A stretch of 64,000 nt of DNA, from positions 998,182-1,062,181 of the forward strand of contig CP002098.1 in assembly GCA_000145985.1 (NCBI GenBank). Direction: 5' to 3'. The notes beneath the pieces are model-generated. The model had not been told where the DNA came from and did no database searches. It saw nothing but the letters and a program-made list of their open reading frames with translations. The translations under genes were made by a program, and so were the position numbers. Below are positions 42,057 to 60,918 of this stretch, in pieces. Source of the DNA: Ignisphaera aggregans DSM 17230. Its GTDB lineage: Archaea; Thermoproteota; Thermoprotei_A; Sulfolobales; Ignisphaeraceae. Position 1 is the stretch's first letter. Each line of letters opens with the position of its first letter.

Positions 42057-42869
42057 TCATGTAATCTCTCTAATCCCTTTTACTATCCCATTAAATAGTT
42101 CCTCTGGTCTAGGAGTCTTTATACCTATTTCATTGGAGAAAAATCTAACTATGTTCTGTATATCTCTATATAGAAACTCGTGTGCATTAGGATGATCAAT
42201 TTTTACCGCTTGACTAACATCTATTATATATAGGAGATCTCTATAAACCATAACATTATACTCACTTAGATCACCATGAACAAGTTTTGCATTCCAGTAG
42301 ATTTTATATATATTATCAATTATATCTATAAAGAATCTTTCAGCCATATTACTATCTATTGCTTTAGCATCATTTAATTCTTTTAATAGAGGTGCTCTAA
42401 CGCCATTCTCCCCAATGAACTCCATAACAAGTATATTTCTATAAACACAAAGTGGCTTAGGAACCCTTACACCGGCATCATACATCTGTTTAAGATTAGA
42501 ATATTCTTTTCTTGCCCATACAGCCATAAGCTTATGTGTATGTAGTGATGTAATCCATTCATATCTTGGATCCCCCCTGATATACTTTAGTATACCCTTT
42601 CTAAACTCAGCTGTAGAAGTTAGATAAATTTTCACAGCTATATCCTCATTATCAAATCCCTTAGCCCAGTAGACCCTTGCCTCCTTACCTGATGATATGA
42701 CTCCTTTTAGCTCCTTTATACATCTTCTCCTCATAAGCTCTATAACTGCTAGAACTGTTGCTTTATCAAAGACCTCTTCTACAGTTTCAAAAAGATCTTT
42801 ATCCTTTCTCCTAGGCTCTCTATCCCTACTATAAAACTCTATATCAATATCTATATCTCTTGATACCAG
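42057..42869 (-). CDS. rio1: Rio1-family atypical protein kinase, probable CTG start
   Basis: A RIO kinase/ATPase needed in ribosome small-subunit maturation. Core motifs: STGKEA-like ISSGKEARVYWAKG loop, IAVKIY lysine, catalytic HGDLSEYN and metal site IIDVSQAV. The first ATG is at 42734, but a clear N-terminal RIO extension (EFYSRDREPRRKDKDLFET, then VEEVFDKATVLAVIEL) continues in frame to the stop codon of aIF1A. In that stretch no ATG, GTG or TTG occurs. The best candidate is CTG at 42867-42869, eight bases after a GGTG. It gives 270 residues. Confidence 0.9.
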   Translation of the reverse strand: MVSRDIDIDIEFYSRDREPRRKDKDLFETVEEVFDKATVLAVIELMRRRCIKELKGVISSGKEARVYWAKGFDNEDIAVKIYLTSTAEFRKGILKYIRGDPRYEWITSLHTHKLMAVWARKEYSNLKQMYDAGVRVPKPLCVYRNILVMEFIGENGVRAPLLKELNDAKAIDSNMAERFFIDIIDNIYKIYWNAKLVHGDLSEYNVMVYRDLLYIIDVSQAVKIDHPNAHEFLYRDIQNIVRFFSNEIGIKTPRPEELFNGIVKGIREIT

Positions 42870-42872
42870 TAG

Positions 42873-43199
42873 CTATTCACCACTTTCAACAAATTCTTTT
42901 GCAATCTTACCCATATTTATTAGCCTTCTTACCTCATCCCTAGAATACTTATAGAGTATATCTCCTTTATTTGGCTGGAAATCCCATGGCATAACGAGAA
43001 CTACATCACCTTCAGAAAGCCACATCCTTCGTCTAAACTTTCCAGGTATTCTACATGTCCTTGAAACACCATCACTACATCTAACTTTAACGAAATCAGC
43101 ACCTATTAACTCCTCTATAACACATATCACTTGGCCCTCACTGGGTAGAGGCATTTCCATCTGTTCAACTGTTTTATCAGCATCTCTCTTTTTCGATAT
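42873..43199 (-). CDS. eif1A: translation initiation factor aIF1A, probable ATA start
   Basis: An OB-fold initiation factor that binds the ribosomal A site and helps start-codon selection. Core motifs: EGQVICVIEEL, VKVRCSDGVSRTCRIPGKFRRR and VLVMPWDFQPNKGDI. The first ATG is at 43160. Upstream, the frame stays open to a TGA and encodes a basic tail SKKRDADKTVEQ, as expected for aIF1A N-termini. GGTG lies seven bases before an in-frame ATA at 43197-43199, and no other candidate or ribosome site fits. If ATG 43160 is used, the product is 95 residues without the tail. The next gene, Rio1, follows in the same frame. Confidence 0.9.
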   Translation of the reverse strand: MSKKRDADKTVEQMEMPLPSEGQVICVIEELIGADFVKVRCSDGVSRTCRIPGKFRRRMWLSEGDVVLVMPWDFQPNKGDILYKYSRDEVRRLINMGKIAKEFVESGE

Positions 43200-43247
43200 A
43201 AGTTCTCACCTTAACAACAAAAATAATTCCCTAAGAACTATATAAGC

Positions 43248-44129
43248 TTAACCAGATCTATACGATTCTTTACGCTTAGATCTAAACTTAGAATAACCTT
43301 TGATGAGAATATCCATAGGCATAACCTCCTCAACACCATCACTATTCAATAGCCTTACAACATCTCCATCAACAGATAGAACAGTATAAGGAACTCCACT
43401 AACAACTATATAGTCTCCAGGCTTAATATTCATGATTCTTATCGATATATATTTTCTTGCATATCTAGAGCCATCAGATCTCCTCATAACATCTCCATAG
43501 GATTCTACAATCCTTACATATCTCCATCTTCTCCTAGCCATTTCAACTATTTTTGTAGCTGTATGTATATCGAGAACCTTGATATCAAAACCATTATCTA
43601 CCTCTGATATCTCTGAAATGAAATCTGTAAACATCTCTGAAATCTCATCTATAAATTTATTTACCTCACCATCTATATTAAGATATCTTAGCTGTATTAT
43701 TGCTGTATAGCTCTTTCCATGTCTTCTACGACAATTTATACAAATAGTTTTTCTCCATCTTATTGGTATAGATTTTACTATATCCATAGTTGTTTTCCCA
43801 TGTATAGAAATCTTTAGAATTATATTGGCTACCCCCTCGGCAATTCTCCCTAGATCTATATCAAGAGAAACTATCTTTATATCCTCAGCAACATTTATTC
43901 TACTAGATATAACTTCTCTAACTATGAGTTTTGCTTCCTCTGGAGTTGTTGGATAATACCACTTACCATTATATCTAATAGCACCACATATACCACATGA
44001 CTCTATCTCTATAAAGTCTATAGGTTTTACAATACCTTTTACCTCGACAAAACATTTTGGACATAGATTATCAATAATAGGAGTATCTTTTGATTCCTCT
44101 ACACCACATCTTACACAAAATCGTTTCAA
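43248..44129 (-). CDS. nmd3: archaeal NMD3 homologue
   Basis: A 293-residue protein with N-terminal zinc-binding CVRCGVE...CPKC and CGICGAIRYNGKW, then the CINCRRRHG element, typical of NMD3. The middle contains KVLDIHTATKIVEMARRR, and the C-terminal part is an OB/SH3-like domain ending in basic residues. Eukaryotic NMD3 is the 60S export adaptor. The archaeal homologue presumably guards immature large subunits. It overlaps DUF424 by four bases and precedes aIF1A. Confidence 0.9.
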   Translation of the reverse strand: MKRFCVRCGVEESKDTPIIDNLCPKCFVEVKGIVKPIDFIEIESCGICGAIRYNGKWYYPTTPEEAKLIVREVISSRINVAEDIKIVSLDIDLGRIAEGVANIILKISIHGKTTMDIVKSIPIRWRKTICINCRRRHGKSYTAIIQLRYLNIDGEVNKFIDEISEMFTDFISEISEVDNGFDIKVLDIHTATKIVEMARRRWRYVRIVESYGDVMRRSDGSRYARKYISIRIMNIKPGDYIVVSGVPYTVLSVDGDVVRLLNSDGVEEVMPMDILIKGYSKFRSKRKESYRSG

Positions 44130-44445: not shown

Positions 44446-44880
44446 CTATACAGGTTTAATAGATGATATAGCTCCACATGCTAAACAGCGTATATACCAT
44501 ATCTTTCCCTCTCTTATAAGCTCTGTATCATAGCTTTTACATGTAGGGCATTTTACATAGGTCTCTAGAAATCTATTATACTGATTTATTATGGACTGTG
44601 CCTTTATATTCTTATATATTATCAACACATTCTTCTCATCTACAGATCCTGAAGCACCTAGCTCCTTAAGGAGAAATCTTGCTACAATCCTTGGATCTCT
44701 TCTAATCCTTTCACAGACATAACCAAAATTCCTTATAATGACATGCTCCCCTATATACTCAAGCTCTAGCTGAGGTATATCATAGGCTCTCGAACTCTTC
44801 CTCACAGGTAATTTAGAGTAGAGCCTATCCAGTAGTTCATCATAGCTATATATAATCTTGGTCTCAGTATCCATAGCCAT
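44446..44880 (-). CDS. eif2b: translation initiation factor aIF2 subunit beta
   Basis: Core motifs: YIGEHVIIRNFGYVCERIRRDP, VARFLLKELGASGS and a C-terminal zinc ribbon CPTC...CLACGA. In the aIF2 trimer, beta helps carry initiator Met-tRNA to the small subunit. ATG 44880 is chosen because GGGAG lies six bases upstream, whereas a TTG at 44901 would add seven residues. It is first in the aIF2-beta, DUF424, NMD3, aIF1A, Rio1, Dim2 run. Confidence 0.94.
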   Translation of the reverse strand: MAMDTETKIIYSYDELLDRLYSKLPVRKSSRAYDIPQLELEYIGEHVIIRNFGYVCERIRRDPRIVARFLLKELGASGSVDEKNVLIIYKNIKAQSIINQYNRFLETYVKCPTCKSYDTELIREGKIWYIRCLACGAISSIKPV

Positions 44881-44964
44881 ATTAACTCCCTTTCTAAACA
44901 ATATCTATTCTGATACAGCTTAAAACCCAATATGCAGTAAAACATTATAGTAATAGTGATCTAG

Positions 44965-58839: not shown

Positions 58840-58986
58840 TACTCTCTACCAAGAATAACATCTCATTTAGTGCAATATATTAGGTACTAGCTTATAACAC
58901 AATAATCATTTATTATATAGAGTGTTATAGACAACTATCAAATATATAGCTCAAATTTATATCTATAATACACGGGGTGTTGAATT

Positions 58987-60918
58987 ATATACAGGGAGCT
59001 TTTATGTCCACGTGACTGTTATGATACGTGTAGACTTGTTTTCTCTATTGAGGATAATATTGTAAAGGATATAAAGCCATCAATATCCTTCCCTACAAAC
59101 GGAATAGCATGTCCAAAGGGTATTGCTGATCACAAACGTGCATATTCATCTGAGAGAATACTGTATCCCTTTATTAATATAGATAAAAATGGTAATTTTA
59201 GACGTATTGAGTGGGAGGAGGCTCTAGATATTATTGTTGGTAGATTAAAGGAATTATTATCTAGTAAACATAGCATTCTATTCATGGATCATGCAGGTAA
59301 TAGAGGACTTATAACAAGACATGCCTCTAGAAGATTATGGAATTATCTAGGTGTCTCAAGAATTGATGATAGTATATGTGATGTCAATGGTGCAAAAGCT
59401 CTAAGACTTCTATATGGTTCTACCTATGGTATTTTTCCTAGGGAGATGGATAGTCTTAGAATGGTAGTGGTATGGGGGTTTAATCCTTTTGCTAGTGCAA
59501 TTCATATATTCCATAAGCTTTTAGATATAAAGAAAAAGGGCGGATTTATTGTAACAATTGATGTTAGATATAGTGAAACTGCAGAGTATAGTGATCTTTT
59601 TATAATGCCTAGACCAGGTAGTGATGGTGTTCTTGCACTTGGAATAGCTAGGTATCTCATAGAGAATAATATGATTGACCATTCATTTATAAATAGATAT
59701 GTATATGGTTTTGAGGAGTTTTCTCACTATGTCTCTAAATATACCTTAGACTATGTTGAGAGAATTACCTCAGTTCCTAAATATGTTATTACTGAGTTAG
59801 CTGAGGAAATGTATCGTAGAAGACCAGATGTAGCTATATTTATAGGTTATGGCGTTCAAAGAAGGATTGGTGGCGGTGATATTGTTAGAGCTATAGCTTC
59901 AATACCTCCATTACTTGGAATACATCGTGGATTTTTCTATAGTAATACAGATGGTCTTCCAATAGACTTTGACTATATAGAAGGGAAATATCTCGGAGTT
60001 CCCTCTAGGGTTATAAGTAATCAGAAAGTTGGTGAAAAACTGTATGAAGGAGAATTTAGGTTTGTCTATATTCATCTATCTAATCCTGTAGCAACATTGC
60101 CAAACGCATTAAAGGTCTTAGAAGGACTTAAGAGAAGGGATGTATTTGTAGTTGTTCACGATACTCATTGGAGTGATACTGCAAGAATTGCGGATATAGT
60201 TCTTCCAGCACCAACATATTTAGAGAAGCTAGATGTTGTATATAGCTATTGGCATAATATTGTATGTATTAATCATCCTGTTATAGAACCTCTTGGAGAA
60301 TCACTTGGGGAATACCATGTTATGTGTGAAATCAGTAAAAAACTTGGTATAGAGAGTGATGTTTGTCCATCTATAGATATTCTTCTTGAAAAAGCCCTAG
60401 GATTTGAGACATATAAAGAACTTATGGATAATGGTTGTATAGAGCTTAGGCCAAGACCTAGAGATGAATATAGAACACCTACAGGAAGGGTAGAGCTATA
60501 TAGCACTATTGCTGAAAAAGAGGGTTTGAATCCTCTTCCAGCTGTCCCTATAGGTGAAATACTTAGAGATGATGAATTTTTACTAATATCATCAGCTATT
60601 AGGGAATATCTACATACACAGTTTGAGGATGTTTATGGAGAGATAAGACCTATAGTACATATAAATCCTGAGGATGCAAGGATGCTAGGTATAGATAATG
60701 GTGATAGAATAGAATTGTATAATAGCTATGGCAAAGCAGTATTAATAGCTAAGATAAGTAGTAAAGTGCCAAGAAGAATTCTTTGGATTCCTAGAGGTGC
60801 AAAGACCTTAGATGGTTTTAGAATAAATATTATAGTAAGAGATGATATTGAACCAATTGGAAGAGGATCTGTAATAAATTCAACTATAGTTAAAATAAGG
60901 AAGGTACACAAAGTCTAG
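58987..60918 (+). CDS. molybdopterin-dependent oxidoreductase (DMSO reductase/formate dehydrogenase family), probable ATA start
   Basis: A 643-residue Mo/W-bis-pterin enzyme. The N-terminal 4Fe-4S motif is CPRDCYDTC followed by GIACPKG, then FRRIEWEEALDII, MPRPGSDGVLALG and the C-terminal pterin-binding barrel (REYLHTQFEDV, INPEDARMLGIDNGD). The first ATG is at 59284, a hundred residues into the protein and after the Fe-S motif. The open frame reaches back to a TGA at 58981. The only start with a proper ribosome site is ATA 58987, seven bases after GGGGTG, with ATT 58984 as alternative. The electron donor is unknown. MobB-like at 16.5 kb may serve its cofactor. Confidence 0.88.
   Translation: MYRELLCPRDCYDTCRLVFSIEDNIVKDIKPSISFPTNGIACPKGIADHKRAYSSERILYPFINIDKNGNFRRIEWEEALDIIVGRLKELLSSKHSILFMDHAGNRGLITRHASRRLWNYLGVSRIDDSICDVNGAKALRLLYGSTYGIFPREMDSLRMVVVWGFNPFASAIHIFHKLLDIKKKGGFIVTIDVRYSETAEYSDLFIMPRPGSDGVLALGIARYLIENNMIDHSFINRYVYGFEEFSHYVSKYTLDYVERITSVPKYVITELAEEMYRRRPDVAIFIGYGVQRRIGGGDIVRAIASIPPLLGIHRGFFYSNTDGLPIDFDYIEGKYLGVPSRVISNQKVGEKLYEGEFRFVYIHLSNPVATLPNALKVLEGLKRRDVFVVVHDTHWSDTARIADIVLPAPTYLEKLDVVYSYWHNIVCINHPVIEPLGESLGEYHVMCEISKKLGIESDVCPSIDILLEKALGFETYKELMDNGCIELRPRPRDEYRTPTGRVELYSTIAEKEGLNPLPAVPIGEILRDDEFLLISSAIREYLHTQFEDVYGEIRPIVHINPEDARMLGIDNGDRIELYNSYGKAVLIAKISSKVPRRILWIPRGAKTLDGFRINIIVRDDIEPIGRGSVINSTIVKIRKVHKV

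Follow-up and report, generated by a model that had tools for sequence, protein, structure and literature searches.

The aIF1A locus

Ignisphaera aggregans is a hot-spring archaeon, and the gene for its initiation factor aIF1A lies in the 64,000-nt stretch of DNA analysed here (hereafter, the window). The sequence comes from the type strain DSM 17230, whose finished genome comprises 1,875,953 bp (PMC3035270). aIF1A is a single-copy gene on the minus strand, within a cluster ordered aIF2 beta, a 103-aa ORF, a putative NMD3-like protein, aIF1A, RIO1 kinase, and a KH-domain protein (Table 1). A Shine-Dalgarno (SD) motif, the spacer GAACTT (43205-43200), and an ATA codon follow one another at the 5' end of the gene. 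After ATA come the codons TCG AAA AAG AGA GAT GCT GAT AAA ACA GTT GAA CAG and only then the first in-frame ATG. The SD motif matches GGAGGTGAT, the generally known pairing partner of the 16S 3' end in archaea; a search for the 16S 3' end in stretches covering 1.524 Mb (81%) of the genome found no rRNA. If the TATA-like element farther upstream acts as the promoter, it would yield a short leader that still contains the SD.

Table 1. Features of the aIF1A locus and of other genes with inferred near-cognate starts. Positions are those of the window unless another stretch or contig is named.
Feature	Position	Strand	Basis or remark
SD, AGGTGA	43206..43211	-	sequence; encloses in-frame stop TGA 43208-43206
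ATA, inferred aIF1A start codon	43197..43199	-	family conservation, coding signature, no canonical alternative
Basic N-terminal tail SKKRDADKTVEQMEMPLP	43143..43196	-	4 Lys/Arg; aligned with relatives
aIF1A coding sequence, ATA to TAG	42873..43199	-	NF003082 above cut-off
First in-frame ATG	43158..43160	-	rejected start; within conserved tail, not conserved in relatives
Tail residues encoded upstream of ATG 43160, including TVEQMEMPLPSEGQ		-	reading from the ATA start
TATA-like TTATATAG	43238..43245	-	sequence only; ~40-46 nt upstream of ATA
RIO1 kinase gene	42057..42869	-	directly after aIF1A stop; likely start CTG 42869-42867
NMD3-like zinc-ribbon protein (putative)	43248..44129	-	upstream neighbour; ORF list, named from sequence features
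aIF2 beta gene	44446..44901	-	same cluster; PF01873 match at G000:C1:1042651-1042980
Molybdopterin oxidoreductase	58984-60915	+	100 codons before first canonical start
YchF-related GTPase	L391:6892-8115 (G000:C1 about 1196892)		starts AGGTGAAGAATT-ATA-GCT; layout as in aIF1A
PurQ	L407:2592-3284		starts AGGTGAGACTCT-CTG-GCT; 26 codons pass before a canonical one
Trm5/Taw21-like tRNA methyltransferase	L398:9453-10310		starts GGTGAAAATGGT-ATT
D-2-hydroxyacid dehydrogenase ORF	L397:17149-18093		60 codons + catalytic domain before first canonical codon

According to the original prediction, the aIF1A frame continues upstream of its first ATG to encode a basic tail and reaches ATA seven bases after GGTG, with no fitting ATG, GTG, or TTG. 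The sequence bears out each of these points. The frame reads from ATA through a tail with four Lys/Arg residues, and exactly 7 nt separate GGTG (43210-43207) from ATA. Because the in-frame TGA is part of the SD, only GAA, CTT, and ATA lie before the tail, leaving it without a canonical start. The protein including the tail matched the NCBIfam equivalog NF003082 from residue 2 (144.2 bits; cut-off 108). A short basic tail before the OB fold, as described for archaeal aIF1A (PMC6412873), is present in this protein only if translation begins at ATA.

Family comparison places the start at ATA

The aIF1A comparison covered 18 family genomes (five genera) and ~146 others of the phylum. In 17 of the 18 family genomes, the SD GGTG was followed after 5-8 nt by ATA; the eighteenth, L015, carries ATG at the ATA position. 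The conservation of ATA with GGTG across species, named in the original prediction as supporting evidence, was thus observed, as was conservation of the upstream tail, which contains 4-8 Lys/Arg in every family member. Residue 2 is always small (A, S, P, V, or G), which fits a position following an initiator Met. The codon preceding ATA differs freely among genomes (CTT, GCT, CCT, TCT, AAC, TTT, GAC, and others), while ATA is constant. ATA makes up 54% of Ile codons in the family aIF1A genes and 59% genome-wide; by codon usage alone, 17 ATA codons would occur with a chance of ~3e-5 to 1e-4 (0.54^17 ~3e-5), an optimistic figure since the genomes share descent.

The SD-to-ATA distance spans all three frames among family members, and the upstream side is therefore not coding. 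In four close pairs of genomes, tail substitutions after ATA were concentrated at the third codon position (7/7/29 for positions 1/2/3). No frame bias was seen in the 45 nt preceding ATA (e.g. 7/6/9, 11/8/6, and 10/7/6). This position-3 bias after ATA, with none before it, indicates that the coding signature begins at ATA. We rejected ATA as an internal Ile codon of a longer ORF, given the frame-shifting distance and the upstream stretch without a coding signature. On this comparative evidence, AUA is almost certainly the start codon of aIF1A.

Default gene callers limited to ATG/GTG/TTG would choose the internal ATG 43160, with the upstream frame open by chance. That ATG, however, is not conserved in relatives, and in 11 of the 18 family genomes the tail has no canonical codon from which it could begin. 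In L013, no such codon appears until 28 codons inside the OB fold. The tail is also conserved and evolves as coding sequence, and we consider an internal start highly improbable. Hardly any weight falls, either, on a sequencing error, AUA-to-AUG RNA editing, or the use of an upstream ATG joined by splicing. Splicing of a few mRNAs, that of cbf5 among them, does occur in crenarchaea (PMC2738675), but the 17 independent assemblies agree, the stated error of the finished genome is <1 in 100,000 (PMC3035270), and an SD lies directly before ATA in every ATA genome. No positive evidence of sequencing error, editing, or splicing of aIF1A was found.

Non-canonical aIF1A starts recur in other lineages

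A non-canonical start was forced in 17 of 116 aIF1A genes of the order and in one CTG-only case outside the order; three tail-length artefacts (L196, L230, and L231) were excluded from this count. The forced starts are ATA in the family of the window and CTG in Pyrodictiaceae (f7), in two genera of f2, a third family, and in L208. The genomes in which CTG was the only candidate are L028-L030 and L033 (Pyrodictiaceae), L085, L249, and L208. Pyrolobus fumarii, which belongs to f7, has GTG, unlike the CTG of other Pyrodictiaceae. Outside the order, in another class, aIF1A of L208, L194, and L195 (f21) starts CTG GGT AAG, with an in-frame TAG immediately before the CTG in L208. The Desulfurococcus genes (L050, L069, and L082) likely start at CTG as well, a reading short of proof because GTG codons lie inside the SD.

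Many crenarchaeal aIF1A genes have an ATG, GTG, or TTG start. In Sulfolobaceae, 14 of 15 genes use TTG and one uses GTG, with ATG in none. In those other archaea whose aIF1A has a canonical start (ATG, GTG, or TTG), the protein, its tail, and the SD position are the same. The distribution of start codons indicates that aIF1A has come to use poor starts repeatedly, in crenarchaeal lineages beyond the family of the window as well.

As controls from the same families, we used aIF1, aIF2 beta, aIF6, and aIF2 alpha, seeking a start before the conserved domain. None of 177 genes lacked a canonical start (aIF1, 0/58; aIF6, 0/59; aIF2 alpha, 0/30; aIF2 beta, 0/30), and ATG was available in all 58 aIF1 genes. 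The one possible exception is aIF2 beta of the Ignisphaera relative G007 (L140), which reads GGGTGA-GTATGT-ATT-TCG-CAG, with its sole canonical codon inside the conserved part, and probably starts at ATT.

Other genes with near-cognate starts

We then took a census of coding prefixes lacking any canonical codon among 1,706 ORFs in the same 1.524 Mb. ATA was not enriched behind SD motifs across this sequence (11/292 versus a background of 4.1%); as SD enrichment was absent overall, we rejected a general role for ATA as a start in this genome. About eight genes, including aIF1A, credibly need a near-cognate start. In the enzymes among them, Pfam/NCBIfam matches begin before the first canonical codon, and some of the genes act in translation.

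The adjoining RIO1 gene has the same frame as the aIF1A TAG and contains no ATG, GTG, or TTG for 46 codons; its likely start is a CTG 8 nt after GGTG. A CTG right after the aIF1A stop was also found in L002-L004, and RIO1 has CTG in Pyrodictiaceae (L029, L030, L149, and L151) and Pyrolobus (L019). For the YchF-related GTPase, the aligned codon in relatives is ATA, ATT, ACG, or ATG, with two cases of ATC/ATT accompanied by a competing GTG. In Escherichia coli, YchF itself binds both IF3 and the small ribosomal subunit (PMC8138138), although the archaeal GTPase is no more than related to it. The ATT of the Trm5/Taw21-like gene is confined to I. aggregans, its relatives having canonical starts. 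The molybdopterin oxidoreductase, with GGGGTG followed by TTGA ATT ATA, likely starts at ATT or ATA, and the D-2-hydroxyacid dehydrogenase perhaps at ATT or GTC. PurQ and a secreted protein were also in the group. Four further ORFs with long coding prefixes (L454:4539-5048, L456:5732-6076, L400:5175-5747, and L432:8760-9503) had no convincing combination of SD and near-cognate codon; they are probably broken or split genes and were left out of the count.

The near-cognate starts on these other genes mean that a poor start does not in itself imply self-control, and any regulatory unit may extend beyond aIF1A. They also suit an explanation without regulatory meaning, in which a strong SD is enough for ribosomes of the lineage to initiate at any near-cognate codon, and the aIF1A start, like those of several other genes, simply drifted. 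RIO1, the YchF-related GTPase, PurQ, the Trm5/Taw21-like gene, and the molybdopterin oxidoreductase all lack canonical starts, and an ATT restricted to one species is what drift would give. Drift predicts turnover, however, and ATA persists in 17 of the 18 members of the family even though one A-to-G change restores ATG. The four control initiation genes are essentially without near-cognate starts, and such starts are rare among the ORFs surveyed. We judge such general tolerance an unlikely explanation; in our assessment, the poor start has probably been selected for in the aIF1A gene.

A possible role for the AUA start

Archaeal start selection is performed by aIF1, aIF1A, and aIF2 (PMC7531240). 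The account that we favour, with moderate confidence, is that aIF1A is AUA-led and that its poor start is kept for the dependence on initiation stringency that it brings, likely serving homeostasis. The start site, its conservation, and an apparent preference for this gene come from sequence comparison; the steps that follow are our proposal. The strong SD AGGUGA would hold the 30S subunit 7 nt upstream of AUA, where Met-tRNAi (anticodon CAU) would read AUA with a third-position mismatch. The initiator Met would probably be removed from MSKKRDADK.... The poor start (CTG elsewhere) may be kept because aIF1A synthesis would then track how strictly near-cognate codons are rejected. The most likely use would be homeostasis, in which abundant aIF1A, together with aIF1, would cause complexes on AUA to be rejected and synthesis to fall.

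Work on Sulfolobus, as cited in PMC6237735, found that aIF1 discriminates against non-canonical starts. In Pyrococcus abyssi, aIF1A reinforces the destabilising, proofreading effect of aIF1, and alone it stabilises initiator tRNA (PMC6237735). Since aIF1A reinforces aIF1, an excess of both could lower initiation at AUA and close a negative loop. The opposite sign of feedback is also conceivable, because basic residues in the yeast eIF1A tail favour suboptimal start codons (PMC5756025) and the aIF1A tail here depends on the AUA start; for the archaeal tail, a P-site contact has been suggested but not seen (PMC6412873). The case for self-control is weakened because other genes, including the adjoining RIO1, use ATA, ATT, or CTG, and because the discriminating factor is aIF1, whose own gene starts with ATG. 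Feedback by aIF1A itself is therefore a tentative proposal, to which we would give somewhat less than an even chance.

Besides general tolerance of near-cognate codons, the main rival to feedback is that AUA sets a low, fixed level of aIF1A relative to ribosomes or aIF1. A conserved poor start with a strong SD would fit this, and so would the codons of Sulfolobaceae, where a weaker start seems broadly favoured. A weaker SD or promoter would do equally well, though, and a strong SD joined to a poor codon is the combination seen in codon-sensing control. We regard a fixed level without feedback as rather unlikely.

Comparison with known systems

The homeostatic reading has its closest precedent in bacterial infC, an autoregulated gene with an ATT start in E. 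coli and an ATC start in Streptomyces (PMC5472188). In both infC and aIF1A, the gene of a start-selection factor has an evolutionarily kept near-cognate start and SD-led translation. However, IF3 is a P-site discriminator, whereas aIF1A is an A-site factor and a homologue of IF1; self-repression is proven for IF3 and proposed by analogy for aIF1A; and the archaeal factor functionally closer to IF3 is aIF1, which has an ATG start in these archaea. The parallel with infC drawn in the original prediction thus holds for the conserved poor start behind a strong SD, but it is weakened by the near-cognate starts of other genes and by the ATG of aIF1, leaving that interpretation as a whole partly supported. 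We doubt that aIF1A represents an archaeal counterpart of IF3/infC control that evolved independently several times.

Eukaryotic eIF1 autoregulates through a poor AUG context (Ivanov et al. 2010, as cited in PMC6237735). Here, too, the start site of a start-selection factor is itself poor, which gives homeostasis in the eIF1 case; but that case concerns eIF1 and an AUG whose context is poor, whereas in aIF1A, a homologue of eIF1A, the codon itself is near-cognate. In Streptomyces, sigR has a GTC start that is repressed by IF3 (PMC5472188). It resembles aIF1A in having a conserved non-canonical start missed by annotation, but its product is a sigma factor, and genetic evidence established that IF3 controls it.

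The start codons given in a review of archaeal initiation are AUG, GUG, and UUG (PMC7531240). The searchable literature yielded no report of an archaeal AUA or CUG start, and our literature search on self-control of any archaeal initiation factor found nothing on point. The comparisons above indicate that the unusual aIF1A start is conserved, and self-control is plausible by analogy. An AUA start conserved on such a factor would point to a pattern common to bacteria, eukaryotes, and archaea, each regulating a start-selection factor through the poor start of its own gene. The AUA-led gene would also be a natural substrate for asking what roles aIF1A and aIF1 play in codon discrimination. In annotation, callers that allow only ATG/GTG/TTG would shorten aIF1A, with loss of its functional tail, as well as RIO1 and other genes described here.
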